From Clostridiales bacterium (lineage in GTDB: Bacteria > Bacillota > Clostridia > Lachnospirales > Lachnospiraceae): a DNA stretch of 39,380 nucleotides. The notes beneath the pieces are model-generated. The model saw only the letters and a program-made list of their open reading frames with translations. It was not told where the DNA came from and did not search any database. The DNA lies in assembly GCA_012512855.1 (NCBI GenBank), contig JAAZDK010000034.1, positions 1 to 39,380 of the forward strand, in the 5' to 3' direction. The number at the start of each line of letters is the position of its first letter. Position 1 is the stretch's first letter. Positions 8,370 through 39,380 of the stretch are shown here, piece by piece. The translations under genes were made by a program, and so were the position numbers.

Positions 8370-8612
8370 AACACCCTCCATTCTCATGAAATAACATGCT
8401 TTTATATTTAATTGTTAAATAAAAATAGCCGTAAATTCTTATGTAAGACTGTAATAAATTTATATTAATCGTTTGCATCGGCAGTAAAATTTCACAATAA
8501 CGGCTTCATAATTCAATAATATATTAGACAGGTTAATAGTTCTTATCATTTATAGTTATGTTGTACTCATTTTTTGCTATCATTTTTTACTAAATTTTGT
8601 ACTGCCTCATCC

Positions 8613-11738: not shown

Positions 11739-11807
11739 TTTAACCCTCCTATGTTTCAAAAATTAATATATTTTGCTGAATATCGCTATGTATCCTTTCG
11801 GGAGAAT

Positions 11808-13407: not shown

Positions 13408-13408
13408 C

Positions 13409-16261: not shown

Positions 16262-16265
16262 CCGC

Positions 16266-18528: not shown

Positions 18529-18550
18529 ATCTGTTCACCTCCCGGATGAC

Positions 18551-20728: not shown

Positions 20729-20761
20729 AATTGCACCTCTTTTCAATTTTTATAGGCTTTT

Positions 20762-20830
20762 CAGATGCCAAATCCGGCACCTGCTGTCAACAGAACAAAA
20801 ACGGCTCTCCTCTACCGCTCGCTGCTCTGT
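20762..20830 (-). ncRNA. Structured 5' leader of the CBM9-like wall protein gene
   Basis: On the minus-strand RNA, 20830-20823 (ACAGAGCA) pairs with 20797-20790 (UGUUCUGU), enclosing a purine-rich segment (GGUAGAGGAGAG). Directly after it CAGGUGCC (20783-20776) pairs with GGCAUCUG (20769-20762) around a 6-nt loop. The second hairpin ends about 33 nt before the start codon. The segment is more GC-rich than its surroundings. It matches none of the riboswitch signatures I can recall, so it is recorded only as a structured leader. Confidence 0.4.
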
Positions 20831-21043
20831 CGTAAATCGTTGTTGCATGTAACTTCTCCAACTGAAAACCCTAATATAACACCCCAATTATATCTGAGCT
20901 GTGAATAGCCTATGTTTAAAATTATGTCCAAGAAACAGTATAGAAATAGTATATTATAACATTTTTCTTTAATATATTAATGCCTATTTGGTGATTATGC
21001 TAGTCACTTATTGCTTTTGTCTTATCATCTTTTGCTAATAATG

Positions 21044-21070
21044 TAGTAGCAATTGCTAATATTGCTACTA
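21044..21070. repeat. 10-bp hairpin between GH43 and CBM9-like genes
   Basis: TAGTAGCAAT (21044-21053) and ATTGCTACTA (21061-21070) are perfect reverse complements around a 7-nt loop. There is no T-run on the minus strand, so as a terminator of the GH43 gene (stop 208 nt upstream) it would be weak. An operator role is equally possible. Confidence 0.45.
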
Positions 21071-21277
21071 TATTTTATACAATTATTATATATGATATTA
21101 TTAAATTTTTCAATACATATATTAGCAGCTTTACTGTGCATTATTCTGCAAACAAAAGATACATTCCCGGAGTATCCGGATTATGCAGAAGTGCCAGCAG
21201 ACCTTTGCATTATCTGCCCGGCTTTTGCCTTTTTGCTTAAGCTTTAGCAATAAACGGGCGACAAAGCGCAAAAATTT

Positions 21278-22846: not shown

Positions 22847-22896
22847 ATTTTTAATTCCTTTCCTAATATTTTTATTTTAATATCATAGGTTGCTGC

Positions 22897-22931
22897 TCTG
22901 CTGCAGGAAATCGCTCATTACCACCAGCAGA
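22897..22931 (-). repeat. Intercistronic hairpin between two GH43 genes
   Basis: TCTGCTG (22897-22903) pairs with CAGCAGA (22925-22931). A competing pairing joins GCAGGA (22903-22908) with TCCTGC (22935-22940). There is no T-run, so a transcript-stability or processing element between cotranscribed genes fits better than a terminator. Confidence 0.35.
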
Positions 22932-22959
22932 AGCTCCTGCCATGCATTAAGCAATAAGC

Positions 22960-24621
22960 TTATTTTGAAAAGCTCCATTCATTTATATGGTAACCGCTGC
23001 CTGCAAAAATCATGTAAATATCATGTACACCGGTAAGGCTCTTAACCGGAACAGTAACCTCGGTATAATTGCCAAAACCATCGGTATCCTTAATTTCTGC
23101 ATAGGTTACAAGATTGCCCTCAAGGCTGTCGCTTACTACTTTTACCGCACCGGCTCCGCCATCACTGGAATATTTGATAGTAAAGCTTGCAGGTCCATCC
23201 TCACCAAAATCGACACCACTAATCCTGATCCAGTCCCCGTCTTCAATATCTCCCAGGGATACAATCACAGGATCCTTAAAGGAGCGCCTTTCCTCCTCAA
23301 TTACGCCAATACCTCCATTAGCCGACATTGTAGTCGCCATAACCCTTTGGTAAGGGTTAAGCCATTCAATTTGCTTTACACCGGTTCTGGTACCTTTAAT
23401 ATCCTCTATAATACCATCGGAGCCAATAATGACCTCATCAACATTGGTGCTTCTGTAGCCTCCCTTAATCCCTTTTGCATCCTGCAGCAAAAATGCATGA
23501 TAGAACATGTACCAATTTCCTTTAAACTGAACCATGCTGTGATGGTTATTTCCACCTGTGCCGAAGAAATGTCCCGGGTTCTTTAAAATTGTTTTCTGAT
23601 ACTGCCAGGGTCCCATCGGACTGTCGCTGATCATATATGCTATTTCTCCCGGAGGAGGGACAATCTCGCCTTTGGCATTAGCCCTGTTACTGAAATTGGT
23701 ACAATAGGAATAATAATATTTGTCCCCTATCTTATTAATTCCGGAATCTTCAAAAAGATATGGAGCATCAATTTCTACCGCCTCACCAACGGTACTTATC
23801 ATGTCATCCCCCAGCTGAATAACTCGGGCTGTTTTAGGAGCATGCTCCATTCCCTCAGGAATTCCTCCGCCAAAATAAAGGTATGCCTTACCGTCATCAT
23901 CCACAAGAACAGCCGGATCAAATAGCCATACAACACCGGCGCACCCCGGAGTGGAGTGGGTAATCAAAGCCTTTCCCAAAGGATCCCTAAAGGGCCCTGT
24001 CGGGCTGTCTGAGGTCAATACACCTATACCTCCGGCTCCATTGGCAAAATAGATAAAGAACTGATCCTTGCCGTCTATATTCTTCCAGACAGCTGAAGGC
24101 GCCCATGAATTTCTGGCCCACAAACTTACCCCTTTTATACCTCCAATGTGAATATTGCCATGATCTGTCCAGTTAACCATATCCGCTGATGATATGCATC
24201 TTAGCTTGTTTATCAGGCCATAGCTGTTCTCCTTTATATTTCCTTCCGAATCATACATCAGGACATCCTGAGTCATATATACATAAACCCTATCCTTATA
24301 TACCATTGCAAAAGGATCTGCACCAAAATCCTGGGTAATAAGCGGATTATTTTCCCCCTCCTTTTTAAGGGAGGCAGCAAAAGTCAGATTACTAAAAAGG
24401 CTCTCCAAATCGTCACGAAAGACCAGAGCCTGATTATTCTCTGCTTTAGGCTGATCTGTTACAGCAGAATTGTCCTCCGGCTTTTGTGTCACCTGCGAAT
24501 TTGCATTATTGTCAACTGTGTCTTCAGTATTATTTTCTTTTATATCAGATGAACAGCCATAAAGCATTAAGCTAAAAAACAGCAGAAAAGGCATGATAAT
24601 CCGTAATAGCAGCTTCTTCAT
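22960..24621 (-). CDS. GH43-CBM6 lipoprotein, paralogue of the one at 3869-5521
   Basis: 553 residues. The signal peptide ends in LYGC (Cys23 anchor), followed by an Asn/Thr/Glu spacer to ~65. The GH43 propeller has Asp102 (GADPFAM, base), Asp235 (LFDPAVLVDDDG, modulator) and Glu291 (LFEDSGI, acid). A CBM6-like module fills ~430-553 (IGVIEEERRSF … GDWIRISGVDFG … YHINEWSF). The likely task is removal of arabinose side chains from arabinoxylan at the cell surface. A short insertion (NRANAKGEIVPPPGE, ~311-325) replaces a different loop in the paralogue, right after the acid-bearing strand, so side-chain preference may differ. The gene starts 14 nt after the lipoprotein GH10 gene, with AGGAGGG close to the ATG, so the two are coexpressed. 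Confidence 0.87.
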   Translation of the reverse strand: MKKLLLRIIMPFLLFFSLMLYGCSSDIKENNTEDTVDNNANSQVTQKPEDNSAVTDQPKAENNQALVFRDDLESLFSNLTFAASLKKEGENNPLITQDFGADPFAMVYKDRVYVYMTQDVLMYDSEGNIKENSYGLINKLRCISSADMVNWTDHGNIHIGGIKGVSLWARNSWAPSAVWKNIDGKDQFFIYFANGAGGIGVLTSDSPTGPFRDPLGKALITHSTPGCAGVVWLFDPAVLVDDDGKAYLYFGGGIPEGMEHAPKTARVIQLGDDMISTVGEAVEIDAPYLFEDSGINKIGDKYYYSYCTNFSNRANAKGEIVPPPGEIAYMISDSPMGPWQYQKTILKNPGHFFGTGGNNHHSMVQFKGNWYMFYHAFLLQDAKGIKGGYRSTNVDEVIIGSDGIIEDIKGTRTGVKQIEWLNPYQRVMATTMSANGGIGVIEEERRSFKDPVIVSLGDIEDGDWIRISGVDFGEDGPASFTIKYSSDGGAGAVKVVSDSLEGNLVTYAEIKDTDGFGNYTEVTVPVKSLTGVHDIYMIFAGSGYHINEWSFSK

Positions 24622-24635
24622 AATCCCTCCTGTTT

Positions 24636-25955
24636 CTATTTATGAACCATTTTAATAGATTCATCCATTGCCACAGCAAAAAATGCAGGCTTTGGATTAA
24701 GCTCCTTGTCAAACAATAAAGGATATTGCGGCTGATCCGCTTTGTTGAGCCAGGACCTGTCATCGGTTAATCCCCAGAAGGTTACGCTGGTTATGTTGGC
24801 AAGGTTCTTGTCAACCATATTATTTAAAACCGTAAATATAGCCTTATATCTGGCGGCCAGCTTCATCTGGCCTTCCTCACTGTTGTCTTCATTGCCGATA
24901 TCCAACTCGGTAACCTGTATCTCAAGTCCCATTTCCGCATACTTGTTAATAGCATACTGATAATCAAGGATATTAGGGCTGGTAAGTCCTATATGATCCT
25001 GCATTCCAATACCGTCTATCCGGATGTTTTGCTCTCTCAATCTATCTACCAGATTGCGTATATGCAATATCTTTGTCTTGTCATAGGTACCATAGTCGTT
25101 GTAAAAGAGCTTCTGTCCCTCTCCAACATATTTGGAGGCAAAGTAAAATGCCTTTTCAACATAGTCAGGCCCTACAACATCATACCAGAGATTATCGTTT
25201 ACACGAATTCCGTCTGGTCTCTCACTGCCCGCAATCGCCTCGTTAACCACATCCCAGGCATATATGATACCGGGATAGTTGGTATTCATATATTCCATAA
25301 CCTGTCTTATGTAATTCTCCATTCTTGCCAGCATTACATCCCTGCTTACATAGGGAGCGTCAGGACTTGTACTGTAGCCCTCGGTAAAGAACCATCTGGG
25401 GGTCTGTGCATGCCAAACCAGAGTATGGAATCTCATCTTCAACCCATTTTCCTTGGCAAATTTAAGTGCAACCTCGGCATTTTTCATATTGATTGCCGGG
25501 CACTCCTCATCACCATTTTGTATTGATGCAGCCCTGTCAAGAATAAAGTCGGGCTTCATTTCATTTTCACAGGTTAAGCTGGAAAACTGGCTTGCCACCA
25601 GCTTTGCCTTATCAGGATTATTAATATCAATATTTGATAATGCAACACCGATATAGAACTTATCCTTATAAATCTTCGCAAGGCTTGGATATTCACCAGT
25701 CTGCCTGTATTTTTCCAGATATGCCTTTGATTCAGCCTCAGGCTCGGGTGTTGGTGTTGCTTCTACTGCTTCGGTTTCAGCCTCAGGCTTTGGGGTAACG
25801 GTATTATCAGCCTTGCCGGCAGCCCCGTCAATATTATTGACTGCTGTATTCTCCTTTGTTCCACCTTCTGTTTTTCCGCATCCAGCAATTGCTACTGCCA
25901 GAAAAATACATGTGCATATAAAAACTATTCTCCTTTTTGCCTTAAATAGCTTCAT
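24636..25955 (-). CDS. GH10 endo-xylanase lipoprotein
   Basis: 439 residues. The signal peptide ends in IAGC (Cys26 anchor), then an acidic Pro/Glu/Thr linker (PEAETEAVEATPTPEPEAES) to ~77. The GH10 barrel spans ~90-435, with NENEMKP-type run SSLTCENEMKPD, HTLVWHAQTPRWFF, acid/base Glu239 in AWDVVNEA and nucleophile Glu350 in QVTELD. Inside the barrel the loop around 186-210 (FFTEGYSTSPDAPYVSRD) is longer than in the cytosolic GH10 of this window. It should attack xylan backbones at the outer membrane face and feed the importers. AGGAGG lies 6-7 nt before the ATG. It is the first gene of the GH10, GH43-CBM6, GH43 unit. Confidence 0.93.
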   Translation of the reverse strand: MKLFKAKRRIVFICTCIFLAVAIAGCGKTEGGTKENTAVNNIDGAAGKADNTVTPKPEAETEAVEATPTPEPEAESKAYLEKYRQTGEYPSLAKIYKDKFYIGVALSNIDINNPDKAKLVASQFSSLTCENEMKPDFILDRAASIQNGDEECPAINMKNAEVALKFAKENGLKMRFHTLVWHAQTPRWFFTEGYSTSPDAPYVSRDVMLARMENYIRQVMEYMNTNYPGIIYAWDVVNEAIAGSERPDGIRVNDNLWYDVVGPDYVEKAFYFASKYVGEGQKLFYNDYGTYDKTKILHIRNLVDRLREQNIRIDGIGMQDHIGLTSPNILDYQYAINKYAEMGLEIQVTELDIGNEDNSEEGQMKLAARYKAIFTVLNNMVDKNLANITSVTFWGLTDDRSWLNKADQPQYPLLFDKELNPKPAFFAVAMDESIKMVHK

Positions 25956-26218: not shown

Positions 26219-27661
26219 TTATTTATTTGCATCAGCTATAAGAGTTTCCCACTTGGTTGTAAGCTCTTCAATCTTTTCAGCAGGAGTCTTACCCAATGCA
26301 TAGGTATCCCAGTAGAAGTCAGGACCTGTATCTGTTCCATATACGAAAGGCTGTACATCGTTGCAGATAACAACTTCATCACTGAACATAAGTGCCAGTG
26401 TCTCATCTACAGCTCTCTCATCACGGAAGCTAGGATAATATGTTTCCTTCCATGCATCCGTATCATCCTCATATCCAGGAGTAGGATTTGTGAACAGGTT
26501 ATATGCAAATGCAATCTTCTCAACTGTCTCTGCATCATAGCTTGAAGGAATAACTGCTATATTGTCATTGAAGTAAATAGTATGCGGTGTATTGGCATCC
26601 TTTCTGGGAGGAAGTACAAAGCCCCAGTCATCTGTCATATCTGCCCATGTTCCGCACTTGTACTGCTCTGCCCAGGTCATGGCAACCTTAGCATCGTGGA
26701 AGGCTGCTATGAACCAATCCCAGTTTGCTCCTTCAGGAGCAGGCATCTCATAGCCCTTCTGAACCAGGCCTATGCCCCACTGAGCACCAGCAAGGAAGTT
26801 GGGATCGTTTGTTGCGTTAAAGAACTTGCCACTCTCATCCTTGCCAATAAACTTAGCGTTATGAAGAGTCAATGCGCCTCTTAAGTAGTCAACAGAGAAG
26901 CTTGCCTGTGCATAGGTATCGATTGTACCGTCGTTGTTGGTATCTCTTGTCAGCTGCTTAGCCAGCTCTTCGTACTTCTCAAGAGTCCACTCACCGCTTG
27001 CCTGCAAATCATACGGCAGTTCAGGATCAAGTCCTGCTTCCTGGAATAATCTCTTGTTCCAGAATACGCCCAGCTTAGGCTCAGGAGTACCGGATGCCAT
27101 ACCATATACGGAACCGTCAAAGGTCATAAGCTCTGTTATATACTTAAGCCACTTATCTTCTGAGAAATCAAAGTTCTTAATGGATGACAAATCATAAAGC
27201 AGACCATTTGCCAGCGGCTGAGCTATCCAGCCCCATCCTAAAAGGAATACATGAGCCGCAGGATCATCAGCCATAACGGATGTTGTAAACAGCTCCTGCA
27301 TACCGCCCCAGTCTGTAACAGCAACCTGCTTAATTGTGAAGTTGTACTTCTTCATGAATTCATTACGATATGCCAGAGTATCTTCTTCCTTCTGGTTCTT
27401 AGGTTCAGGTGTTTCCTGGGGAGACCACCAGTCACCAACGATAATTTCCATACCACCCAGATCCATAGCCGGCTCTTCAGCCTCTGTTGGAGTAGCTTCG
27501 TTGTCTCCGCCGCTTTGTGTATCTGTATTGGTGTTTGTTTCGCCCTGTGTATTAGCAGGGGTATCAGTGTTTTCAGCCTTCTTGCCGCACGCAGTCAGCA
27601 TAGAAACGCTCAACGCCAGTATCAGCATAACTGATAACATGCGTTTAGTAATTTTTTTCAT
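26219..27661 (-). CDS. ABC sugar-binding lipoprotein (family 1 solute-binding protein)
   Basis: 480 residues. The signal peptide ends in LTAC (Cys25 anchor), followed by an Asn/Thr/Gln/Glu-rich linker to ~68. The mature domain begins GGMEIIVGDWWSP and runs as a two-lobed binding protein of the CUT1 class, with LFTTSVMADDPAAHVFLLGWG early and PASYDAETVEKIAFAYNLF-like C-terminal helices. Binding of xylo- or arabinoxylo-oligosaccharides is inferred from context. AAGGAGG lies about 9 nt before the ATG. Unlike most such genes it is not joined to its permeases. It is monocistronic, behind a 688-nt upstream gap and with its own terminator, which would allow much higher expression than the permease operon at 28350-39380. 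Confidence 0.88.
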   Translation of the reverse strand: MKKITKRMLSVMLILALSVSMLTACGKKAENTDTPANTQGETNTNTDTQSGGDNEATPTEAEEPAMDLGGMEIIVGDWWSPQETPEPKNQKEEDTLAYRNEFMKKYNFTIKQVAVTDWGGMQELFTTSVMADDPAAHVFLLGWGWIAQPLANGLLYDLSSIKNFDFSEDKWLKYITELMTFDGSVYGMASGTPEPKLGVFWNKRLFQEAGLDPELPYDLQASGEWTLEKYEELAKQLTRDTNNDGTIDTYAQASFSVDYLRGALTLHNAKFIGKDESGKFFNATNDPNFLAGAQWGIGLVQKGYEMPAPEGANWDWFIAAFHDAKVAMTWAEQYKCGTWADMTDDWGFVLPPRKDANTPHTIYFNDNIAVIPSSYDAETVEKIAFAYNLFTNPTPGYEDDTDAWKETYYPSFRDERAVDETLALMFSDEVVICNDVQPFVYGTDTGPDFYWDTYALGKTPAEKIEELTTKWETLIADANK

Positions 27662-28349: not shown

Positions 28350-29348
28350 TTACATCTTCAAACCGGTCTGGCTTAAGCTTTCAACAAAGCCCTTCTGAGC
28401 GATAACATAGATGATCAGAAGAGGTATTATTGTCATAACCATACCGGTTGATATCATTGCCATACCATAAGCGGTTGACGCCTTACCTGAGCCTGTGAGG
28501 GATATAATATAGTCAGTTAATCGTGTTGGTAAAGCAGGCAATTCGGTTGCTAAAAGAGAAGTACCCTTTAAAAATATCCTTGCATAAAAGTTATCGGTCC
28601 ACTGCCATACAAAGGCGAAGAGGAAGCAAGATGTTATTATCGGAGTTGCATCCGGAAGCATAATTCTAACGAATGTCTGGAAATTGCCGCATCCGTCAAC
28701 ATATGCCGCCTCTTCAAGCTCCTTTGGAACTCCTCTGAAGTATTGCCTGATAAGGAATATATACAATCCGCTCTTCAGACCCATTCCGGTCATGCACAAC
28801 ATTATATAAGGTATTATTGAATTTTGCAGGTTAATGGTAGACCCTGTAATAGCTTTTATTATGCCGAATATATCAAAGAATCTGAAGTTCAGATACAGTG
28901 ATGACATAATGGTCTGAGGGGGCACAACTATTACCAGTATTACACACGCAAACCATAACCTCTTCAGCGGGAATTTAAATCTGGCAAATCCGTATCCTAC
29001 CAGAGTACAGCACGCTACCTGGGCAAAGCTTGCCAGCAATGATAATCCAAGGGTATTGCGGAGTATCCTCCAGTAATCAAGCAAATATGCCGCTATTTTA
29101 TAATTATCTAAGGTAGGATTTCTGGGTACAACGATAATGGTTGGGTCATACAAATCCTTTTCAGCCATAAAGCTGGCTGATAATTTGTTAAACAATGGCT
29201 GCAGAATTAAGAAACACAGACCAAGTATCAGGATGGCTCTTGCAATTGAGTAAAGCCTTCTCATAATAATCTTCTTTAACAGATAACCGCCGGATTTTTT
29301 GTTTCTTTCCAGAAAATGACTCCATCTTTGCGATAACTTTTTACTCAT
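28350..29348 (-). CDS. CUT1 ABC sugar importer permease (MalG-type), pair 1
   Basis: 332 residues with six predicted membrane helices after a basic ~35-residue cytosolic start. The EAA loop at ~212-231 (EEAAYVDGCGNFQTFVRIMLP) has the conserved Gly and Leu-Pro that dock onto the ATPase. The DPTIIVVPRNPTLDNYKI segment after helix 1 is typical of MalG-type subunits. The first 8 nt overlap the end of the partner permease gene. No ATPase is encoded, as is usual for Firmicute oligosaccharide importers that share an MsmX-type ATPase. It is the last gene of the importer operon; the lone binding protein next door is a plausible partner. Confidence 0.9.
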   Translation of the reverse strand: MSKKLSQRWSHFLERNKKSGGYLLKKIIMRRLYSIARAILILGLCFLILQPLFNKLSASFMAEKDLYDPTIIVVPRNPTLDNYKIAAYLLDYWRILRNTLGLSLLASFAQVACCTLVGYGFARFKFPLKRLWFACVILVIVVPPQTIMSSLYLNFRFFDIFGIIKAITGSTINLQNSIIPYIMLCMTGMGLKSGLYIFLIRQYFRGVPKELEEAAYVDGCGNFQTFVRIMLPDATPIITSCFLFAFVWQWTDNFYARIFLKGTSLLATELPALPTRLTDYIISLTGSGKASTAYGMAMISTGMVMTIIPLLIIYVIAQKGFVESLSQTGLKM

Positions 29349-30264
29349 AATAGTACACCCACCTTGAAGTTATTAGGCTGAATAAGCCTATGATTAACAT
29401 TACAGCCAGGAAATAGACCCAAGCCATAGCAGCGCTGAAGCCATAGTCCAGCCGCATTACCATCGTATCGGTTATCTTGGTCATAACCTGACTGTTGGAC
29501 TTCATAAAGAAGTCAACAATGGTGTAAATGACATTTACCAATATAACCGAGCTAACCATTGGCAAGGTAATCTTCCAAAAGCCCTCCCATGCCGTACATC
29601 CTTCAATAGTTGCAGCCTCAAACATGCTCTTTGGTATAGTCTGAAGTCCCGACAGGAATATGATTATTTGTATACCTGAAGCAATAACAACGTCGTACAG
29701 ACTGTTTACTATGTTGTATACTGTCTCAAGATATCTTGAACCTAAACCTGTGGTGGAAAGAATTGATTGCAGTGTTGCCGTAATTTCACTGGCGTTTGTA
29801 TTTTCCTTGATATATTCCTCCATACCACTTAACAGGCTGTTATTGTATTCAAGTCCTACCAATACACCTGAGGACAATATAACTGGCAGGAAAAATATGG
29901 CGCGCGCAAGTGTCCTGCCCTTAAAGGACTGGTTAAGAATTAAAGCCATGAAGAAGCTTATAATTATTGTAGCCGGCACATGAGTCAGCATGGTGGTCAG
30001 CTCGGTTGTCAAAAATCTGGTGAACTCAGCATCTACAAGGAATGCCTGCTTAAAATTCTTCAAGCCCCAGAAATTTAATACAAATCCACCTTTACCACCT
30101 ACAACCTTAACATCGCTAAGGCTCATCATGAATGATTCACATAAGGGCTTTAACATAAATGCTAAAAAGCCTATAATAAAGGGTGATATAAATATATATC
30201 CGGCTATCGCTTTCTTCCTGCCTAAATTCTTGTGTTTCGGTTTAGCCACTTTTGTCTTAGCCAT
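29341..30264 (-). CDS. CUT1 ABC sugar importer permease (MalF-type), pair 1
   Basis: 307 residues, six predicted helices. The opening KKAIAGYIFISPFIIGFLAF is the standard MalF-type first helix, and the EAA loop at ~216-235 reads FEAATIEGCTAWEGFWKITLP. An extracytoplasmic insertion (~140-185, SGMEEYIKENTNASEITATL) between helices is longer than in the second pair's MalF-type subunit. AAGGAGGT lies 7 nt before the ATG. It starts 5 nt after the DUF5696 gene and overlaps the MalG-type gene by 8 nt. Confidence 0.9.
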   Translation of the reverse strand: MAKTKVAKPKHKNLGRKKAIAGYIFISPFIIGFLAFMLKPLCESFMMSLSDVKVVGGKGGFVLNFWGLKNFKQAFLVDAEFTRFLTTELTTMLTHVPATIIISFFMALILNQSFKGRTLARAIFFLPVILSSGVLVGLEYNNSLLSGMEEYIKENTNASEITATLQSILSTTGLGSRYLETVYNIVNSLYDVVIASGIQIIIFLSGLQTIPKSMFEAATIEGCTAWEGFWKITLPMVSSVILVNVIYTIVDFFMKSNSQVMTKITDTMVMRLDYGFSAAMAWVYFLAVMLIIGLFSLITSRWVYYYE

Positions 30265-30269
30265 CTATA

Positions 30270-32798
30270 TTACCTCCTTTCTACCAAATAATCTTGGGCA
30301 GGAACCTTAATACCATCCTGTTCAAAATCATAATCGGTGTAGTTTACATAAACATTGGTTCCATCCTCATAGCTGGTAACAAACACACCATCCTTCAGAC
30401 GCTTGTGATCTGTAATATACTGATTGAACACATGGCCCAGTTCGGATTCATATCTGTTGTAAATCTTATATGCCTCTTCCTTCCACAAATCATAGTCTGA
30501 ACCATACAAATTGGTGTGATATGTTTCACGCAGCTCGGATGTTGCTTCTTTTATAAATGTGAATGACAATCCTGCACCTGTTTCAGCACTCTTCAAAATC
30601 AGCTTTTTGTAATTGGCAGAGAGGTTTATAGACTCACCTGAGTAACTCTTTAAGCCATGAATGGCTGCAGGATAAAATGGTATCATATAATCGATAATTC
30701 CGTACCTTGAACCATATAAGTCCATATTAGTTATGAAATCGGCATATGGCATAGCATAATCATTGCCGTTATTTATCATTATCTTGCTGCCCTCAGCATA
30801 AATTCTGGAGAGTTCCTGCTGATGCATTTCCATAACTTCCTGTCTGGTTATAAGATTCTTAGGATCATAGCTGCCTGCAACGGTATATCCTATATCGCTG
30901 AATGCTACATTTGCATTATGCGCTTTTACATAGTCAGTCAGATTCTTCATATATTCAATGGTTCTTTGAGGCTTCAATAAATAGTAGTCGTCTAAATAGG
31001 GATTAGGAGCATACCATACGGTAAAGTCATTGAGCTTCAAAATTTCCCTGCCTGCTGTCTTTACCGCATCCCTGTTAATTACAAATCCGTCAAACCAGCC
31101 ATAGTTATAGGTGGTCTGGACTGTTCCTTCAAGATACAAGGGAATGTTAAGCTCGTTTGCGTGGTTTATAAGCTTAACTAATTCTTTCTTTCCGCCAAGC
31201 TTGGATACCGGCTTAACCTTGGTTAAGGCTTCATGCCTTAAGCCGTCGTTCATCCATCCTCTGTATTTGACGTATAAATCCTTGTACCCCGTTTGCTTTA
31301 GCTCATCAAGTATTTCTGACGCTTCCTTATAAGATGTCAGTTCCCACGGTACGTTTACAGGCAGACCAAAGCGCTGTACATCCTTATCAATAGCTCCAAT
31401 CAGAGTAACGTTAACAGGGGTACTGGACTCCGTCTTCTTTACAAGAAGGTCAGGATATTTCTTCATCAAATATTCCCTGTAGCTTTCGGCCATCTTTATA
31501 TAGTTGTCGGAGTCAATGAAGCGATATCTTTGCTTAAGAACTCCACTTGGCTTCCTCTGCTCGAACATGATAACCGATTTATCTGTTTTTTTGGAAACCT
31601 TGAGCGAAGAATAATGCATGGTAAGGTAGGAAGCATGTGCAAAATTGTAGCTGCTGCCATTGCCGCTTACATCTGCTTCAATAATAGCAACCGGAGCATA
31701 ATCCTCTAGTATGCACAGCATTGAGTTTCCGTTTTTGGCTATGCCAAATACCGGGAAGGCTGTATCATTTTCATCAGTCATGGAATCTCTTTCTCTGCCC
31801 AGATCCCATCCGTAAACGTCAACATAGTAAGCGTTTTGCTCGCTCTTGCCGTTATTGAAGTTAATAACCGCACCGCTGCCTTCAGGAACCATCAGGTAAC
31901 CCTCATCGTCGGTGCTTCCGGCACCAAAGTAGGGTAATACCTTAACTCTTGTAATAGGGTACTCTTCCTTCCATATCATCTTTTCATACGGAACCTCTAC
32001 TACAAGCTCATCGTCTTCAAGGCGATAAATTATTGACATATTAAAGTAGGGCTGTTCCTCAGTATCTTCCTTGGCGTATTTCTCCATATCTGCTTCCCAG
32101 TCCTCAATGGTATATCCTGCTGCCGCAAAGAAGTCCTGCATTTGCAGCTTCATATGGTTCTGAACATCCGTACGAAGAACATATACTCTTTCTGTTTCCA
32201 GCTCAGGATACTGTTTCTTAAGTTCATCCGGATCATCGGTAGGAAGCAGGTTATCCAAATCCACCCTACGGTAATAGGTTTTAACCTTTCTCTGCGCACT
32301 TGAATCCATTTTTTCAAGATAAGTATTCATTCTGGATTCAGGCATCGCGGGTGGAATGTAGTAAATCTTTTTCAAATCACCGATAGTATAATCTACCTCA
32401 ATCGTGTCCCCATTTTTGGTAATTTGATAATTTGTCTTTTCTATACTCTTTTCAAAATTGGCATATGTAACAGTAACGCCGATACTGTTTGTATATTCAA
32501 TAATAAGAGTAGATAGCATGTAGTTTATATTAGTCGGATCAGCCATAGGGTCATAGGCTGCGTCTTCAGGATTTGACCGCCATACTGAATTATTTACTTT
32601 ATTCAATACTTCAAAATGAGTTGTTTCAGGATATAATGTAAACCTTAGCTTATCATTTTCAAGCACGAGGGGCTCAGGATACTCTTCGGCGTTAAACGAA
32701 AATGTCGGTATTTCTATTTTTTGTGCTTGATTCTGGCTGCATCCAACCAAAAGTACAGACGAAATAAGGATTAAGCCTAATTTTAATAATTTTCTCAT
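30270..32798 (-). CDS. DUF5696-type lipoprotein, possible glycosidase-like fold
   Basis: 842 residues from the ATG at 32798, with AAGGAGG 6 nt upstream; a GTG directly before it is less well spaced. The signal peptide ends in LVGC (Cys20 anchor). I recognise it as the DUF5696 family, whose function I do not know. By eye, ~40-445 is beta-rich (LVLENDKLRFTLYPETTHFEVLNKVN opens like a beta-supersandwich), ~464-770 alternates strands and helices like a barrel (PVNVTLIGAIDKD, LYVKYRGWMNDG, PLYLEGTVQTTYNYGWF, NVAFSDIGYTVAG, KIMINNGNDYAMPY), and a short beta domain ends the chain. Conserved-looking acids sit at strand ends (Asp635 and Asp680), as in retaining glycosidases. It is cotranscribed between Yip1 and permease genes (11- and 5-nt gaps). 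A catalytic or sugar-handling role on the outer face is inference. Confidence 0.75.
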   Translation of the reverse strand: MRKLLKLGLILISSVLLVGCSQNQAQKIEIPTFSFNAEEYPEPLVLENDKLRFTLYPETTHFEVLNKVNNSVWRSNPEDAAYDPMADPTNINYMLSTLIIEYTNSIGVTVTYANFEKSIEKTNYQITKNGDTIEVDYTIGDLKKIYYIPPAMPESRMNTYLEKMDSSAQRKVKTYYRRVDLDNLLPTDDPDELKKQYPELETERVYVLRTDVQNHMKLQMQDFFAAAGYTIEDWEADMEKYAKEDTEEQPYFNMSIIYRLEDDELVVEVPYEKMIWKEEYPITRVKVLPYFGAGSTDDEGYLMVPEGSGAVINFNNGKSEQNAYYVDVYGWDLGRERDSMTDENDTAFPVFGIAKNGNSMLCILEDYAPVAIIEADVSGNGSSYNFAHASYLTMHYSSLKVSKKTDKSVIMFEQRKPSGVLKQRYRFIDSDNYIKMAESYREYLMKKYPDLLVKKTESSTPVNVTLIGAIDKDVQRFGLPVNVPWELTSYKEASEILDELKQTGYKDLYVKYRGWMNDGLRHEALTKVKPVSKLGGKKELVKLINHANELNIPLYLEGTVQTTYNYGWFDGFVINRDAVKTAGREILKLNDFTVWYAPNPYLDDYYLLKPQRTIEYMKNLTDYVKAHNANVAFSDIGYTVAGSYDPKNLITRQEVMEMHQQELSRIYAEGSKIMINNGNDYAMPYADFITNMDLYGSRYGIIDYMIPFYPAAIHGLKSYSGESINLSANYKKLILKSAETGAGLSFTFIKEATSELRETYHTNLYGSDYDLWKEEAYKIYNRYESELGHVFNQYITDHKRLKDGVFVTSYEDGTNVYVNYTDYDFEQDGIKVPAQDYLVERR

Positions 32799-32812
32799 CA
32801 CTAGCCTCCTTA

Positions 32813-33478
32813 TTAGTAGAAGCGGTATGATATTTCTTTATACATAGAAATAAAATATGCAGCCGCATCCGAAATTAAACTAAAGAATAGCAAGAGGACA
32901 AATACTATAAGCAGCATGCCGACAGCTGTTGCTATCAGGGTAAGGATTGTTTTGGTTATGGTATAATCATGTATCTGCATTACAGCACTTACAATCAGCA
33001 CACCCATCCATACTGATGATACAGAACTCGCATAGTAAATAAATGCTCCCTCTTCAATAGTCAATACATTACTTATAAAAATGCATGGCAGATTTATTAT
33101 AACATATGGAGTGAAAGCATAACCGATTGCCATGTAAACATCCTTCATTGTACCCTTACCGTCAAACAATGTGGTCAGGCCCCAATTGGCAAGAGTTCCT
33201 ATAAAAATCGGAGCAAGAAATCCCGCTATGACTCTGTAAACATTGAAATACTGCAGCTGAACAAACCCGTAAATCATAGGATTTCCGTACTGATACGACA
33301 ACAGGGTGGTCAGCAAGGCCAATATAATTATAATATTGGCTGCAGCAACAGAACCTCTCTTTTCATGTGTGAGATCCCAATAACCATCAAGCGGATGAGT
33401 ACATACATATAAGGAATACCGCAGAGTTTTCCCTACATGCTGAAGTTTTTCCTTATTTAAAAACGCGGGCATTTTCAA
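32813..33478 (-). CDS. Yip1-family integral membrane protein
   Basis: 221 residues. The probable start is the TTG at 33478, which overlaps the TGA of the NHL gene (TTGA) and has AGAGGTGG 7 nt upstream; the ATG at 33472 is the alternative. A cytosolic N-terminus (LRYSLYVCTHPLDGYWDLTHEKRG) is followed by about five membrane helices (~47-65, 85-107, 118-142, 148-168 and 182-208). The short run PLDGYWDL before helix 1 and the GYAFTPYVIINLP segment are what I associate with Yip1-domain proteins. Members are membrane proteins of unclear function in bacteria. Tight coupling to the NHL-protein gene (4-nt overlap) suggests the two act together in the membrane. Confidence 0.75.
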   Translation of the reverse strand: MKMPAFLNKEKLQHVGKTLRYSLYVCTHPLDGYWDLTHEKRGSVAAANIIIILALLTTLLSYQYGNPMIYGFVQLQYFNVYRVIAGFLAPIFIGTLANWGLTTLFDGKGTMKDVYMAIGYAFTPYVIINLPCIFISNVLTIEEGAFIYYASSVSSVWMGVLIVSAVMQIHDYTITKTILTLIATAVGMLLIVFVLLLFFSLISDAAAYFISMYKEISYRFY

Positions 33479-34950
33479 GCTCTATCCACCTCTCTTTTTA
33501 TCCTTTTTATAAACTCCACCAGATTCGGTACAACAATCAAAGCTAAAAAGATTGCCACAATCCATCCGATGTTTTCTTCAATCCATTCTTTTCTGTATAA
33601 CTGGAAGGCTTTTGAGTAATGCTTTCTTTCCTTTGAAAATTCAAAATACTCCATCGCTTCCTTGTATCTCTTCTGTCTGAATAGTGAACGGCCTATGCCT
33701 GTGTAAGCCAAATCATAGTTACCGTTAAGCCTTAAAACCTGCTGCCAGTACTCGGCCGATTTATCATAATTACCCTTCTTGTACTCATCAAGGGCGGAGT
33801 TTATTAATTTTCCATATTCGGTAAGAGTAAATACCGTGAAGGCCTGGGTTCTCTGGTCAAGTACCACCAGATCATAGCCAAGATGATCAATTGCAACAGG
33901 TCCCAGCATATAGCCCAGCCTGTTACCTACTCCTCCAAAGGCATAGAGCAGATTACCCTGTTCATCATAGGCAAATATTCTGCTTCTTGTCATATCAAGA
34001 GCAAGATAAATATCATTATCAAGAACTGTTATATCTATAAATCTGGAAGGTCCGTTATAGCCTGCGGCATCCTGCCAATCCAGATCACCTACAGGCGGTT
34101 CCCATCCGTTCTTAACCAGAATGTCGGTTCCCTGGGCATTCAGCTTTCTTATGGGTTTTGCTGTTGTCAACAGCTCCCATCTGTCAAAGGTCATAGTAGT
34201 ACAATATATAAATCCATCCTTATCAAGAGCAACATTGCTGTATTCCGTCGGAACGAACTGAACCATTCTGGCCTTCTGCTCCTTGGTGGCAATCATCTTC
34301 CATAAATAATCCACCAGATTGAATTTTGCTTCACTTGCTCCTATAAAACCTACGAAGCTTCCGTCAGAATGATACTGAACAAAGCCCTTATTGTAGTTCT
34401 TGGCAAGAACATAAACTCTTCCTGCCACGTCAGCCACAGCCTTGGTTGGAAGGAAGTCGCTGTTCTGGTCGACAGTTTCATCAACCGGTTTTGTCAGCAG
34501 TTTAACCAACTGCTTTTCGGAATTCAGATGAACGACTCTCTGGTTGTTGGTATCGCAAATATAGTAATCACCATTGTCAGCAACAAATATGTCCTGTGGA
34601 GAATTAAAGGTCAGTACTTCACTGTCACCGGTAAACTCAGATATAACATCGACTGCAGTAAACTGGTCGCCATCTCTCTTTACCACTACTATTCTGTTAT
34701 TACCGGTATCACATATATATATATGGTCATCCTTTGCATACATTCCCATCGGATCCTTGAAGTCACCTACACCTAAATCATCACCTGTAACATAAAACAC
34801 CGCCTCATATGCATCAGGTGATTCTCTAGCATCAATCCAGTAATCATAAACATATGTATAAGGTGCCTGCTTGGCTTTTACTGTTATATCGGGAGACAGC
34901 AATAATACCACAAAGCATAAGAGAATTGAAATAATACCTTTTCTTTTCAT
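33475..34950 (-). CDS. NHL-repeat / TPR protein with C-terminal membrane anchor
   Basis: 491 residues. A signal peptide (~1-27) is followed by NHL-type propeller repeats over ~55-370: FKDPMGMYAKDDHIYICDTG, FNSPQDIFVADNGDYYICDT, VALDKDGFIYCTTMT, and ITVLDNDIYLALDMTRSRIF, then LGPVAIDHLGYDLVVLDQRT. A TPR-like helical segment (~385-450: YKKGNYDKSAEYWQQVLRLN, then GRSLFRQKRYKEAMEYFEFS) and one membrane helix near ~461-481 (IGWIVAIFLALIVVPNLVEF) with a basic tail close the chain. The propeller and TPR should therefore face outward. AGGAGG lies 5 nt before the ATG. Such domains bind proteins or glycans; no enzyme motif is seen. It sits between two permease pairs of the importer operon. Confidence 0.8.
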   Translation of the reverse strand: MKRKGIISILLCFVVLLLSPDITVKAKQAPYTYVYDYWIDARESPDAYEAVFYVTGDDLGVGDFKDPMGMYAKDDHIYICDTGNNRIVVVKRDGDQFTAVDVISEFTGDSEVLTFNSPQDIFVADNGDYYICDTNNQRVVHLNSEKQLVKLLTKPVDETVDQNSDFLPTKAVADVAGRVYVLAKNYNKGFVQYHSDGSFVGFIGASEAKFNLVDYLWKMIATKEQKARMVQFVPTEYSNVALDKDGFIYCTTMTFDRWELLTTAKPIRKLNAQGTDILVKNGWEPPVGDLDWQDAAGYNGPSRFIDITVLDNDIYLALDMTRSRIFAYDEQGNLLYAFGGVGNRLGYMLGPVAIDHLGYDLVVLDQRTQAFTVFTLTEYGKLINSALDEYKKGNYDKSAEYWQQVLRLNGNYDLAYTGIGRSLFRQKRYKEAMEYFEFSKERKHYSKAFQLYRKEWIEENIGWIVAIFLALIVVPNLVEFIKRIKREVDRA

Positions 34951-34959
34951 TGTTTCCTC

Positions 34960-35826
34960 CTAATCCTTGATACCAGACGTTGCCATAGTCTCCATAACAT
35001 TACTCTGAACTATGATAAATGTGGCTACCGGTACAATCATCATTACAACTGATACAGCAGCTGCTACACCTGCTCTGGCTATTCCGGCTGCTGCTATCTG
35101 GCCTAATGCATAAGGCAGGGTTTTTAACTGCTCAGAATAGATAAATGTTGATCCTCTTGCATTCCATAGGTTTTGAACGGAGAAAATCATAAGAGTAAGC
35201 CATGCCGGTTTTACAAGCGGCATTGCTATACGGGTGAATACCGCCCATTCCTTTGCTCCGTCAACCTTTGCAGCCTCAATCAAAACATCCGGAATATTTG
35301 CATCCATATACTGTTTCATAAGGAACAGGCCCATAGGCGCTGCAAACGCTGGTATTACTACTGCCCAAACCGTATCTACCCAGCCTAATCTGGCTATAAC
35401 GAGATAGTTGGGAATTGAGGTAACATAACCGTTAAACATAAGGGCTGTAACAACTATTCTGAAGAAGGTCATACTTCCCGGGAATCTGTACTTTGATAAT
35501 ACGAAGGCTCCCATGGAGGCTATGATTATATGTCCGGCTGTTCCCGCTATAGTTATAAATACCGTATTAAAAAGATATCTTGAAAACGGAACCCATGATT
35601 TTCCCAGCAACACAAGCAGGTCCTGGAAGTTATCCATGGTTGGGTTTCTTACGAAAAACCTGGGAGGATACAGGAATATCTCATCCATTGGCTTAAAAGC
35701 ACTATTAATCGTATATATCATCGGAATAACCATAAATGCTGCAAATAAACCCAAAAAGGTGTAAATCCCGAAATCGCCGCCCCACGAACGGTTAGGCTTG
35801 CGCCGTTTAAGAATTTTTTTCCTCAT
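34960..35826 (-). CDS. CUT1 ABC sugar importer permease (MalG-type), pair 2
   Basis: 288 residues with six predicted helices. The EAA loop at ~184-203 reads IEAAKVDGAKEWAVFTRIAMP. The DEIFLYPPRFFVRNPTMDNFQDL segment after helix 1 is typical for MalG-type subunits. It differs clearly from the pair 1 MalG-type subunit, so the two importers are not a recent duplication. It lies 27 nt after its MalF-type partner and 9 nt before the NHL gene. Confidence 0.9.
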   Translation of the reverse strand: MRKKILKRRKPNRSWGGDFGIYTFLGLFAAFMVIPMIYTINSAFKPMDEIFLYPPRFFVRNPTMDNFQDLLVLLGKSWVPFSRYLFNTVFITIAGTAGHIIIASMGAFVLSKYRFPGSMTFFRIVVTALMFNGYVTSIPNYLVIARLGWVDTVWAVVIPAFAAPMGLFLMKQYMDANIPDVLIEAAKVDGAKEWAVFTRIAMPLVKPAWLTLMIFSVQNLWNARGSTFIYSEQLKTLPYALGQIAAAGIARAGVAAAVSVVMMIVPVATFIIVQSNVMETMATSGIKD

Positions 35827-35853
35827 AGTCTCACTCTCTCCCTCTTAATAACC

Positions 35854-36786
35854 TCAAGTTCCTACACGTCTCAGCAGCTTCTGAATTAACTTGTTGCACA
35901 AGATCATTGTAAAGAACAGAAGTGTTGCTACTGCGGAAGCATATCCCATTTCAAATCTTATAGAACCATAGTCAATCAGGTGCAGTACAACCGTATGGGT
36001 AGCGTAGTCTGTGCTGGGGAAACCGGTTAAGGCCATCGGCACATCCGCTACGTTGAAGGCTGATGTAATTGACATAACGGCACTGAACATAAGCATGCTC
36101 TTCATATTGGGCAGGGTTATAAACCACAGCTCCTGCCAGCGGTTCTTAATGCCGTCAATCAAGCCAGCTTCGTACATTGATTTGTCTATGCCCTGCAAAC
36201 CTGCAACCAGCGCCAAAAAGCCTGCACCAAGGCTGCTCCACAGGGAAACAATTATTACAACTGCCATCATATACTGAGGGTTGGTAAGCCAAGTAATCGG
36301 CTGCTGAATAACGTTCAGCTCAATCAAAATCGCATTCAGAAGTCCATATGCGTCACCTGAGAACAAATATGCCCACATCAGGTACATATTTGCCGAAAGC
36401 GACGGCGCATAGAACATTACTATCGCTATTGCTCTGATATATCTAGGAAGCTCATTGATAAACCAGGCAAAGAGGAACGCCGATATATAGCCTACCGGTC
36501 CCGTAATAAGAGCCAACAGGAAGGTATTCTTGACTGCTATAAGGAATACATCGTCCGCAAGCAGGAGGTTTATATAGTTTTGCAGTCCTATAAACCTGGG
36601 AGGCTCAAGTATGTTATAGTATGTAAAGCTCAAACATAATGAGGTTATAACCGGTACTACAAAAAACGTTATAAATAGAATTCCATAAGGAGCCAGGAAA
36701 AGGTAGCAAGCCTTTGATCTTTTTGCCATCTTCCACTGATATGCTCTAAACTCTCTTTTTCTGGCAAGATATCTTTGTAAACTCAT
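35854..36786 (-). CDS. CUT1 ABC sugar importer permease (MalF-type), pair 2
   Basis: 310 residues, six predicted helices after a basic cytosolic start. The EAA loop at ~206-226 is YEAGLIDGIKNRWQELWFITLP, with Gly in place of the second Ala, a common variant. GGAGGG lies 9 nt before the ATG. The gene follows the large binding-protein gene by 15 nt, which marks that protein as its likely substrate donor. Confidence 0.9.
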   Translation of the reverse strand: MSLQRYLARKREFRAYQWKMAKRSKACYLFLAPYGILFITFFVVPVITSLCLSFTYYNILEPPRFIGLQNYINLLLADDVFLIAVKNTFLLALITGPVGYISAFLFAWFINELPRYIRAIAIVMFYAPSLSANMYLMWAYLFSGDAYGLLNAILIELNVIQQPITWLTNPQYMMAVVIIVSLWSSLGAGFLALVAGLQGIDKSMYEAGLIDGIKNRWQELWFITLPNMKSMLMFSAVMSITSAFNVADVPMALTGFPSTDYATHTVVLHLIDYGSIRFEMGYASAVATLLFFTMILCNKLIQKLLRRVGT

Positions 36787-36801
36787 TTAACTTATCCCTC
36801 C

Positions 36802-39380
36802 TTACCTGATATCCAAACCAAACTCAAGACGTTTCTTCTGGATTTCTTCGTTTATTGTAATCGCATAGTCCAGTACTGTTTCGCGAACGTCCTGATTTGT
36901 GTAGTTAATCTTACGAATCGCATTTGTTATATGTCTGGAGGTAAAATAGCCACCTGCAATTTCTCTGTAGCCAACAGCCCATTCTCTCTGGGTATTGAGC
37001 ACTTCCAGCTGATCCTTGTTCCAGTTCAGCTTTTCAAAAGCCCTAACATTGGCAGTTGCATATCTTGCAGCTGCACCCATTACGCTTTCAAGCTCCTGGC
37101 CGAAACGAACCTGGGCCTCCTCGCTAACCCACCATTTCAGGAAGGTCCATGAATTCTGCTTGATTTTTTCATCCTTCTGCTTCAGTATCATTGCGCAAAC
37201 GCCGCCTGAATTGCATGAACGGTCTATAGTACCATCTTCCTTTTTAACACCAGGTATCAGTGTGAAGTCCCACAAACCTCTGATTTCAGGAGCAAATACC
37301 GCCAGCTGGTTATAAGTGGTGAAATCCACAATACCGATAGGGCATTGCCCCGAACGGAAAAGGTTCGGAAAATCATAAATAGTAGGCAGCTTATATGATG
37401 TAAAGAATTTAGTATATACTTCGAATGCCTTAACAGCATTTTCATTGTCAATCAGAACCTTCTTGCCTTCATCATCATACAGTCTTCCACCATACTGGTA
37501 CAGAAGAGCCAGAATTCCATTCAGGTTGGCGTTGGTATTAGTCATTACACCCTCGGTAGACGGCATAACCACAACCATATTGTTCTGCTGAATGGTAGGA
37601 AGTATTGCTATCAGATCATCCCAGGTCTGAGGTACTTCAACCTCCAGCTGCTCCATAATATCCTTTCTATAGAACAGTACATTGAAGGTCTGGGTCTCAG
37701 GCAAGGCATAAATGCCGCCCTCAAAGCGATAAGGCTCATATGCGCTTGGATGGAAGTTCTTCAATACCTCATTTAAATCCGAAAATTGCGTAAGGTCCTC
37801 GACTGCTCCACGAAGAGCATAGTTAACCGGTTCACTCTGACCTACGCTAAGCACAACATCAGGTCCCTTGCCGGCCAATACCGCATTAAGCAGGTTACCG
37901 GCTTCAACCAGCTTAACATTAACCTTAACACCTGAAGTCGGAGTGAAGGTATCATCTATCATGGACTTTAATATTGTACTCTGGTCACGGCCTGCCAGCA
38001 TCCATACCTCTATAGCTTCCTTTGAATCATGCAAATCGCCTATAGCATTGTAATCGGTAACAAATGTAGCAAAGAAGGATTTCACTTCATGCAAAGCCCT
38101 GTTCAGGAAGGACTCGTTAATCTCATCAGGCTGTGCATTAGGTCCTGTTATGGTAATCAGGTCGATATCAAGAGGTGCTTCACTCAATGTCAGAATTGCT
38201 GTACCCAAGGCACTAATATTATTCTTGAAGGCTACAAATTCTCTTGATATCCTGTCCGGATTCTTAATGAAACGATCCAGCTGCTTTGCCAGATTAAGAG
38301 CGGGAGCTATCTGATTTGATCTCTGACCCGAATAGGCGGTTACATCATCAACCATCTTATAAAGTCTCTTCGCTTCACGCTCCATTTCAACCATTACCTG
38401 AGGATACTGCTGGGCAATTCGGTAATCCCTGTATCTGTCAGGATTTGCACCGGTAAGAACAAGTATCTTTCTGTATACAGCATTCAGGTTTGTTACCGTA
38501 GCACTCATCTCATTCAGAATTAAGCCCAATTCGCCAAGAGTAACCTCAAGGCGGATGGTATGCTTGCCCTTTGTCAGATAAAACTGATAGGGCTCACCAT
38601 TCTCGTCTGCCAGAGTCAGATTCTCCCATTTGTTGCTGTACTTGAAGCTTATAGCGCTAAGCTCCTTGAAGGGAATCTCTCCGTCTATATAAACAGCACG
38701 GTTTGATACGAAGCCACGGTTGTAGTTCTGTCTGCCCTTGATTGTTATGTTGTAATAGTTATCCTCGGGGACCTCGAATTCCCACTCAATCCAGTTGCCT
38801 GCTATTCTCCATGCATTACCGCCTATCATGTTAAGCTTGATGGTAGCAACGCTGGCAGGAGTTGTAGCCGGTGAAGATCTGTCATAAATAGCATACAGCG
38901 AAGGCGAAGAACGATAGGTTGAATCCTCGCCCTGTATTATCTGCTTATAGTTGTTTGCTGTTTCAGAAGCAGCAACCTTTGGCAGGCTTGCCTTATACTC
39001 GCTGTATGAAGGCTTTTCTTTTATAGCTTTAAGAGTCAGGGATTTAATTACTGTAGGCTCATTTACACCTTCAAGTCTGATTGTGTTTGTTCCCTTCTTG
39101 AAATAGAAAGCGTAGGGCTCTGTAAAATAGCCCAAATCATCCTTGAAATACGCTTCGGTCCAGGAAGGTACGTCAATCTGGGAAGGTCTGATTTCATTTC
39201 CCTGATTGTCTACGACAACTTCTCCTTTGTCTTTCCATATTCTGTAGAAGTTAAGCGCATCTGCTCCTGAAAAAGGAATTTTACCGTTTATATACAGCTT
39301 TCTTTCAATTTCAACCCCACGGGCCTTAACGGTGTAATATTCCATATGTATGTTGTACATACCCTCTTCAGGAACATTGA
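36802..39380 (-). CDS. Large solute-binding protein with extra beta-sandwich modules (N-terminus beyond window)
   Basis: The frame stays open to the right edge (codons for NVPEEG precede the first Met at 39360), so the true start and any signal peptide lie outside. Numbering from that Met, two related beta-sandwich modules can be seen at ~1-112 and ~136-290. They share LYINGKIPF/VYIDGEIPF and YAFYFKKGTNTIRLE/YQFYLTKGKHTIRLE. A helical segment (~295-445) leads into a family 1 binding-protein domain (~448-850: IEVWMLAGRDQSTILKSMID, GKGPDVVLS, VPQTWDDL, GVVMPSTEG-like core, FLKWWVSEEAQVRFG). This is about twice the size of a normal binding protein. The modules probably bind sugar or protein partners. 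It is the most upstream gene seen in the importer operon. Confidence 0.87.
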   Translation of the reverse strand, partial: NVPEEGMYNIHMEYYTVKARGVEIERKLYINGKIPFSGADALNFYRIWKDKGEVVVDNQGNEIRPSQIDVPSWTEAYFKDDLGYFTEPYAFYFKKGTNTIRLEGVNEPTVIKSLTLKAIKEKPSYSEYKASLPKVAASETANNYKQIIQGEDSTYRSSPSLYAIYDRSSPATTPASVATIKLNMIGGNAWRIAGNWIEWEFEVPEDNYYNITIKGRQNYNRGFVSNRAVYIDGEIPFKELSAISFKYSNKWENLTLADENGEPYQFYLTKGKHTIRLEVTLGELGLILNEMSATVTNLNAVYRKILVLTGANPDRYRDYRIAQQYPQVMVEMEREAKRLYKMVDDVTAYSGQRSNQIAPALNLAKQLDRFIKNPDRISREFVAFKNNISALGTAILTLSEAPLDIDLITITGPNAQPDEINESFLNRALHEVKSFFATFVTDYNAIGDLHDSKEAIEVWMLAGRDQSTILKSMIDDTFTPTSGVKVNVKLVEAGNLLNAVLAGKGPDVVLSVGQSEPVNYALRGAVEDLTQFSDLNEVLKNFHPSAYEPYRFEGGIYALPETQTFNVLFYRKDIMEQLEVEVPQTWDDLIAILPTIQQNNMVVVMPSTEGVMTNTNANLNGILALLYQYGGRLYDDEGKKVLIDNENAVKAFEVYTKFFTSYKLPTIYDFPNLFRSGQCPIGIVDFTTYNQLAVFAPEIRGLWDFTLIPGVKKEDGTIDRSCNSGGVCAMILKQKDEKIKQNSWTFLKWWVSEEAQVRFGQELESVMGAAARYATANVRAFEKLNWNKDQLEVLNTQREWAVGYREIAGGYFTSRHITNAIRKINYTNQDVRETVLDYAITINEEIQKKRLEFGLDIR

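Follow-up and report, generated by a model that had tools for sequence, protein, structure and literature searches.

A conserved operon of two MalF/MalG permease pairs with NHL/TPR, Yip1 and DUF5696 proteins as a candidate oligosaccharide import system

The window analysed is a stretch of 39,380 nucleotides comprising an entire contig (JAAZDK010000034.1, here G000:C254) of the Clostridiales bacterium assembly GCA_012512855.1 (Lachnospiraceae), a source genome of 3.05 Mb in 301 contigs that is 87% complete. At its end, eight genes were identified on the minus strand in the transcription order SBP1 (a binding protein), MalF1, MalG1, NHL/TPR, Yip1, DUF5696, MalF2 and MalG2. The open reading frame (ORF) listing placed them at intergenic distances of 15, 27, 9, -4, 11, 5 and -8 nt, so that no gap exceeds 27 nt, and Pfam identified SBP_bac_1, BPD_transp_1 (four times), NHL with TPR, Yip1 and DUF5696 (E 2.4e-183) among the products. 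The initial annotation had described an eight-gene operon on one strand in which neighbouring genes overlap or lie no more than 27 nt apart, including an overlap of 4 nt between the NHL and Yip1 genes; coordinates (33475 against 33478 for this overlap) and Pfam domains agree with this description. The genes of the operon are as follows.

36802-39378, minus strand: SBP1, 5'-truncated and open at the window end, with two N-terminal beta-sandwich modules, a helical region and a C-terminal SBP_bac_1 domain resembling maltose-binding protein (MBP) (Pfam, AlphaFold2, Foldseek).
35854-36786, minus strand: MalF1, CUT1-type permease subunit with an EAA loop (Pfam, EAA motif).
34960-35826, minus strand: MalG1, CUT1-type permease subunit with an EAA loop (Pfam, EAA column table).
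33475-34950, minus strand: NHL/TPR protein that opens with a signal-like segment at its N-terminus, continues through NHL repeats and TPR, and closes with a single hydrophobic segment and a basic tail (Pfam, alignment, hydrophobicity scan).
32813-33478, minus strand: Yip1-domain membrane protein, its gene overlapping the NHL gene by 4 nt and fused to it in many relatives (Pfam, alignment).
30270-32801, minus strand: DUF5696 protein with a lipobox-like LVGC and a predicted GH129/DagB-like fold (Pfam, PDB profile searches, AlphaFold2, Foldseek).
29341-30264, minus strand: MalF2, permease subunit directly after DUF5696, with an EAA loop (Pfam, EAA scan).
28350-29348, minus strand: MalG2, permease subunit with an EAA loop (Pfam, EAA scan).

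As the window is a complete contig, SBP1 is truncated at its 5' end. A search with a profile of the N-terminal part of SBP1 located the missing start on another contig of the same assembly (G000:C286), positions 1-127 of which are identical over exactly 127 nt to positions 39254-39380 of the window. This identity resembles a typical assembler overlap, and contigs C254 and C286 are therefore probably neighbours in the genome. The joined SBP1 is approximately 967 aa long and possesses an N-terminal hydrophobic segment with no lipobox. Given that some 555 nt separate SBP1 from the next gene upstream, the operon probably begins with it.

Conservation of this arrangement was investigated by searching 398 genomes of the phylum with the DUF5696 profile PF18952, with matches of E < 1e-100 taken as strong and scoring limited to three candidates per genome, so that copy numbers are lower bounds. 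Matches were found in 46 genomes (37 strong, nine weak and partial), while two of 14 control genomes were matched, neither past the cut-off. A scan of 84,980 GTDB genomes confirmed at least 574 DUF5696 relatives, indicating that the cassette is widespread. A total of 136 loci was then compared, consisting of 56 places with strong matches (up to 20 kb each) and 80 named loci representing the best of these GTDB relatives; the two sets overlap and contain 131 distinct DUF5696 proteins. Carriers among the best 80 of the at least 574 relatives included Paenibacillus, Cohnella, Lederbergia, Gracilibacillus, Evansella, Halalkalibacter, Lachnospiraceae and others, together with a metagenome-assembled genome (MAG) of Spirochaetaceae that shows the operon order in part.

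Genes for NHL/TPR, Yip1, DUF5696, MalF2 and MalG2 recur in this rigid order across the 136 loci. More than 2.5 kb of upstream sequence was present in 129 loci, and after correction of four missed cells NHL and Yip1 were found directly before DUF5696 in every one of them; the uncorrected script counts were 128/129 for NHL and 126/129 for Yip1, the misses having been caused by the way ORFs were called or by the limit set on distance (L130 and L097 were recovered by tblastn, and the Yip1 ORF of L055 from the ORF listing). The 129 DUF5696-MalF2 junctions called in the 136 loci had a gap of at most 53 nt, with a median overlap of 4 nt, although overlaps are overstated as the longest possible starts were taken. 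The SBP1 block was identified upstream in 29/44 loci of the 56-locus set and 73/75 of the 80-locus set with more than 7.5 kb of upstream sequence. The block of SBP1, MalF1 and MalG1 precedes that of NHL, DUF5696, MalF2 and MalG2 in loci L042 and L045, and follows it in L047, L051, L074 and L082. Because it can be placed after MalG2, the SBP1 block is a second, movable block, and the two blocks are separable modules.

Co-occurrence of these genes at the genome level was near-strict. Strong matches to an NHL profile (E < 1e-50) were obtained in 38 of the 398 genomes, namely all 37 with a strong DUF5696 match and G243, in which a fragment of the NHL gene lies on a contig that breaks off at that point; a further 53 genomes showed only short repeat matches. 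The SBP1 N-terminal profile (E < 1e-80) also identified 38 genomes, consisting of 36 of the 37 with strong DUF5696 together with G104 and G154; in the 37th (G103) a contig opens with just a fragment of SBP1 (E 7e-32). Weak matches were seen in seven more genomes. G104, G154 and G243, which have NHL or SBP1 and no DUF5696, do not show a separation of these genes, as the contigs concerned are short (3.8, 4.3 and 8.5 kb, respectively) and end near the match. The initial annotation had reasoned that the grouping would be accidental if NHL, Yip1 and DUF5696 genes were rarely adjacent elsewhere; their adjacency in 129/129 loci places it beyond chance and, together with the genome co-occurrence, rules out an accident of gene order.

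All four permeases of the window contain BPD_transp_1 and an EAA coupling loop, and they fall into four separate ortholog groups, with best matches within their own group for 30/31 MalF1, 31/31 MalG1, 52/52 MalF2 and 52/52 MalG2 proteins. Median identities were 0.53 for MalF1 and 0.51 for MalG1 (31 loci) and 0.38 for MalF2 and 0.39 for MalG2 (52 loci), locus numbers thus differing between the pairs. The possibility of a degenerate second permease was rejected: a strict EAA pattern failed for 20/52 MalF2 proteins, yet the substitutions were only of alanine by cysteine or valine, with the glutamate, glycine and proline retained in 52/52. A gene for a MalK/MsmK-like ATPase (ABC_tran, OB_MalK, TOBE_2) was identified unlinked to the operon, between YitT-type and PucR-type genes on another contig (G000:C156). 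The lack of a linked ATPase is in any case ordinary, as the oligosaccharide importers of Anaerocellum bescii are reported to be driven by one shared MsmK (PMC12838199, PMC12710961).

The AlphaFold2 model of SBP1 (pLDDT 88.2) has an MBP-like C-terminal half, for which the best Foldseek matches include oligosaccharide-binding proteins, with the N-terminal half forming two additional beta-sandwiches. Among 35 SBP1 relatives, CBM_35 was found in seven and Golvesin_C in 18 (Pfam, E<=0.01). In the PDB, the N-terminal half also weakly matched cycloisomaltooligosaccharide glucanotransferase (E 1e-5), the top row of this search being a designed coiled coil that matches the helical part. Examination of N-termini identified a hydrophobic segment in 105/110 SBP1, 116/134 DUF5696 and 137/143 SBP2 proteins, the last being a separate type of binding protein found near the operon, while a lipobox-like motif (simple pattern) was seen in 5/110, 40/134 and 77/143, respectively. 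In loci L061 and L064 (same contig as L092), five or six tandem SBP2-type ORFs follow MalG2, as if one importer had interchangeable receptors.

Comparison of a DUF5696 profile (42 sequences) to the PDB matched the glycosidases DagB (8rzg and 5opq, E 5e-10), over the whole sequence and with no single stretch below 0.001, and NagBb (5wzn, E 8e-6). The AlphaFold2 model of the protein (pLDDT 86.9, pTM 0.83) was matched best by Foldseek to DagB (5opq; E 7e-30, TM-score by target 0.67-0.69, 13% identity), followed by NagBb and GH101 enzymes. DagB consists of a beta-sandwich, a TIM barrel and a C-terminal immunoglobulin-like domain (PMC5698469). The model and its Foldseek match agree with an overall DagB-type architecture, and DUF5696 is thus predicted to have a GH129/DagB-like glycosidase fold. 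The position of its gene is that of a binding protein ahead of MalF2. Canonical CUT1 operons run binding protein, MalF, MalG; set against this order, the arrangement SBP1-MalF1-MalG1, NHL-Yip1, DUF5696-MalF2-MalG2 puts DUF5696 in the place of the binding protein of the second pair.

The NHL/TPR protein was found by hydrophobicity scan and alignment to have a signal-like start and, towards its C-terminus, a single hydrophobic segment ahead of a basic tail, and Yip1 has four to six predicted transmembrane segments. The two are encoded by a single gene in 53/136 loci (35/56 and 18/80), a count that leaves out L130, where the fusion was recovered by tblastn. The sequences of both proteins fit a membrane platform. 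The earlier proposal of such a platform, formed by the three non-transport proteins, was accordingly retained in part: they travel with the permeases as a unit and their sequences are compatible with it. The absence of an ATPase, which it had counted as part of an abnormal CUT1 layout, was rejected as a sign of novelty in view of the MalK-like gene on C156, and the shared MsmK documented for Anaerocellum bescii shows it to be ordinary.

Downstream of the operon in the window lie the following genes, all on the minus strand and identified with Pfam.

26219-27661, minus strand: SBP2, a distinct binding protein of lipoprotein type, separated from the end of the operon by 688 nt.
20012-25955, minus strand: glycoside hydrolase (GH) family 10 enzyme, GH43 with a family 6 carbohydrate-binding module (CBM6), GH43 with a C2 domain, and a CBM9 protein.
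2176-10148, minus strand: further xylan-type enzymes, namely GH30, GH10, a GDSL esterase, GH43-CBM6 and GH43 with a C2 domain.

Between the two enzyme groups, and thus within the xylan enzyme cluster, are an efflux-type ATP-binding cassette (ABC) set at 11808-19648 (two HlyD-like proteins, a 950-aa FtsX permease and two ATPases) and, at 10227-11759, a protein of 510 aa for which Pfam gave no match (E<=0.001). Contig C286 carries genes for GH2, GH3 and GH67, together with UxuA, a GntR regulator and an enzyme of the mannitol-dehydrogenase family. Taken together, the enzymes of the window and of C286 have the appearance of a glucuronoarabinoxylan pathway, in keeping with the roles of GH67 and UxuA. 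With GH10, GH43, GH30 and probably GH67 nearby, the cargo in this genome is most likely decorated xylan, that is (glucurono)arabinoxylan, oligosaccharides. The neighbours gave no support to a single substrate for the whole family, as they vary between loci and include GH10, GH43, GH26-CBM35, GH38, GH2, GH95, GH9, GH5, pectate lyase and others; some loci carry enzymes for mannan or other glycans, and some carry none of those probed.

From the conserved order, the near-strict co-occurrence, the domain content, the predicted folds, the xylan enzymes adjoining the operon here and the GH neighbours of part of its relatives, we consider there to be about an even chance that the operon encodes one extracytoplasmic machine for the capture and import of large decorated oligosaccharides, here most likely (glucurono)arabinoxylan fragments, with an accessory platform serving its CUT1 importers. 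In such a machine, SBP1, anchored by its N-terminal hydrophobic segment, would bind the glycan through its CBM-like modules and load MalF1/MalG1, while a membrane-attached DUF5696 would bind the chain, may in some lineages trim it, and would work with MalF2/MalG2. NHL/TPR and Yip1, often one protein, would act as a membrane scaffold joining DUF5696 and the permeases, and thereby the two importers (SBP1-MalF1-MalG1 and DUF5696-MalF2-MalG2). A MalK/MsmK-type ATPase encoded elsewhere would power both permeases.

A number of observations weigh against this capture-and-import machine. The SBP1 of the window itself was matched by neither a CBM nor Golvesin_C in Pfam (E<=0.01), and the link to C286 depends on an overlap of 127 nt that a repeat could also yield. 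A member of the eight GH families probed was found in just 17/56 and 38/80 loci; these are lower bounds, as GH95, GH9, GH5, pectate lyase and others near cassettes lie outside the families probed, and the window's own stretch (L031) was counted as having no GH because the fetched piece ends before the enzymes. The sole neighbour scanned was an aminotransferase in L054 and a saccharopine dehydrogenase in L057, two loci of the window's class, and with so few of the probed families present a glycan role is not evident at every locus. The presence of an SBP2-type ORF in 122/136 loci means that DUF5696 need not substitute for a binding protein. The scaffold role given to NHL/TPR and Yip1 is drawn from their domain types, and the correlation between NHL and DUF5696 divergence (r 0.92, 25 pairs of paralogous loci within one genome, with no unlinked control) is as expected from duplication as one unit.

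Another explanation, possible if on the unlikely side, is that DUF5696 is an active exo-glycosidase of the GH129/DagB type, removing side groups or chain ends at the membrane immediately before import, with NHL/TPR and Yip1 serving just as a tether. Both its best sequence matches and its best fold matches are glycosidases, and acidic residues are conserved in at least 90% of the 131 DUF5696 proteins at five columns (307, 333, 644, 704 and 740), with N680 in 126/131 and W516 and R653 in 131/131. A candidate residue, D636, lies at the end of a predicted strand (631-634) in the window protein. It is present in 90 of the proteins and absent from 41, however, and the window protein carries serine in the column of D644. 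The catalytic residues of DagB are D202, D486, E517 and E531, with D435 of NagBb the counterpart of DagB D486 (PMC5698469); this catalytic region did not align with DUF5696, and D636 is a candidate there. In the LHLDGW motif of NagBb, the aspartate falls opposite R514 of the window protein and, across the family, mostly opposite serine or threonine. The only Pfam match of the window protein at E<=0.1 was PF18952, with no match to GH129 (PF11308). Loss of a catalytic residue, suggested by the NagBb alignment, was dropped as proof that DUF5696 is a pseudoenzyme, as PMC5698469 names other catalytic residues and the decisive region is unaligned. GH129 relatives that could bridge the alignment were not found in 199 genomes of the phylum, a search in which the controls were silent too and which is thus not evidence of absence, and a search for DagB relatives on plasmids found none.

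An extension of the capture-and-import machine, which we regard as unlikely, is that DUF5696 is a glycosidase-fold receptor replacing the binding protein of the second permease, with both importers held by NHL/TPR and Yip1 in one supercomplex for threading long glycans, or passing them on, at the Gram-positive surface. Such a supercomplex would be a functional counterpart, by analogy, of the SusCD system of Bacteroidota, in which glycan capture at the surface is coupled to long-chain import.

It is also conceivable, albeit quite improbable, that NHL/TPR and Yip1 are not structural and instead sense flux in, or regulate, the two importers or two-component systems nearby. Repeats of the NHL and TPR kind serve protein interaction and would suit such a role, and AraC and histidine-kinase genes occur among the neighbours; against it, a Pfam scan of the window proteins identified no signalling domain in either protein, and the pair adjoins DUF5696 in every testable locus, whereas a scan of 152 neighbour proteins identified AraC and kinase domains in only a few. 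That the operon merely combines two ordinary CUT1 importers of differing specificity, the other three genes being kept by linkage alone, would agree with the EAA loops kept in all four permeases and with the frequency of SBP2-type genes, but is highly improbable given the same order in Paenibacillus, Cohnella, Bacillaceae-type genera, Lachnospiraceae and, partly, the Spirochaetaceae MAG, and the nearly perfect co-occurrence in genomes.

To our knowledge, the transport of large branched oligosaccharides across the membrane of Gram-positive fibre degraders is poorly resolved. Were the capture-and-import machine to prove correct, three protein types of unclear role would gain a common task, with predictions that can be tested in soil and fibre-degrading bacteria. 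A literature search on the word DUF5696 found no paper, in a coverage that mostly excludes subscription journals, and searches combining Yip1 or NHL with importer terms returned nothing recognisable as this cassette, as judged by titles and abstract starts.

Among known systems, SusCD differs from the operon in its components, as no TonB receptor or SusD domain was identified with Pfam among 27 window proteins scanned, and no homology is claimed. GH129/DagB-like glycosidases (NagBb, ZGAL_3152) share the predicted fold of DUF5696, which is unlike them in its 13% identity, its separate Pfam family and its membrane attachment beside importers. Gram-positive polysaccharide utilisation loci, such as the xylan/aldouronate systems of Paenibacillus, combine carbohydrate-active enzymes with an ABC importer and a regulator, and the operon here similarly lies within a xylan enzyme cluster; term searches of a paper on Paenibacillus sp. 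JDR-2 returned neither Yip1 nor NHL (PMC4765114). The operon also resembles CUT1 importers of the MalFGK2 type, with which it shares MalF/MalG pairs with EAA loops, MBP-type binding proteins (SBP1 and SBP2) and a MalK-type ATPase encoded elsewhere, the use of which by these permeases is putative. Unlike such importers, SBP1 has two extra beta-sandwich modules and lacks a lipobox-like motif in 105/110 proteins (simple pattern). In the literature searched no description was found of what this cassette is, namely CUT1 importers with a dedicated conserved platform, differing from the CUT1 layout in uniting two permease pairs and three dedicated accessory proteins in one conserved operon.

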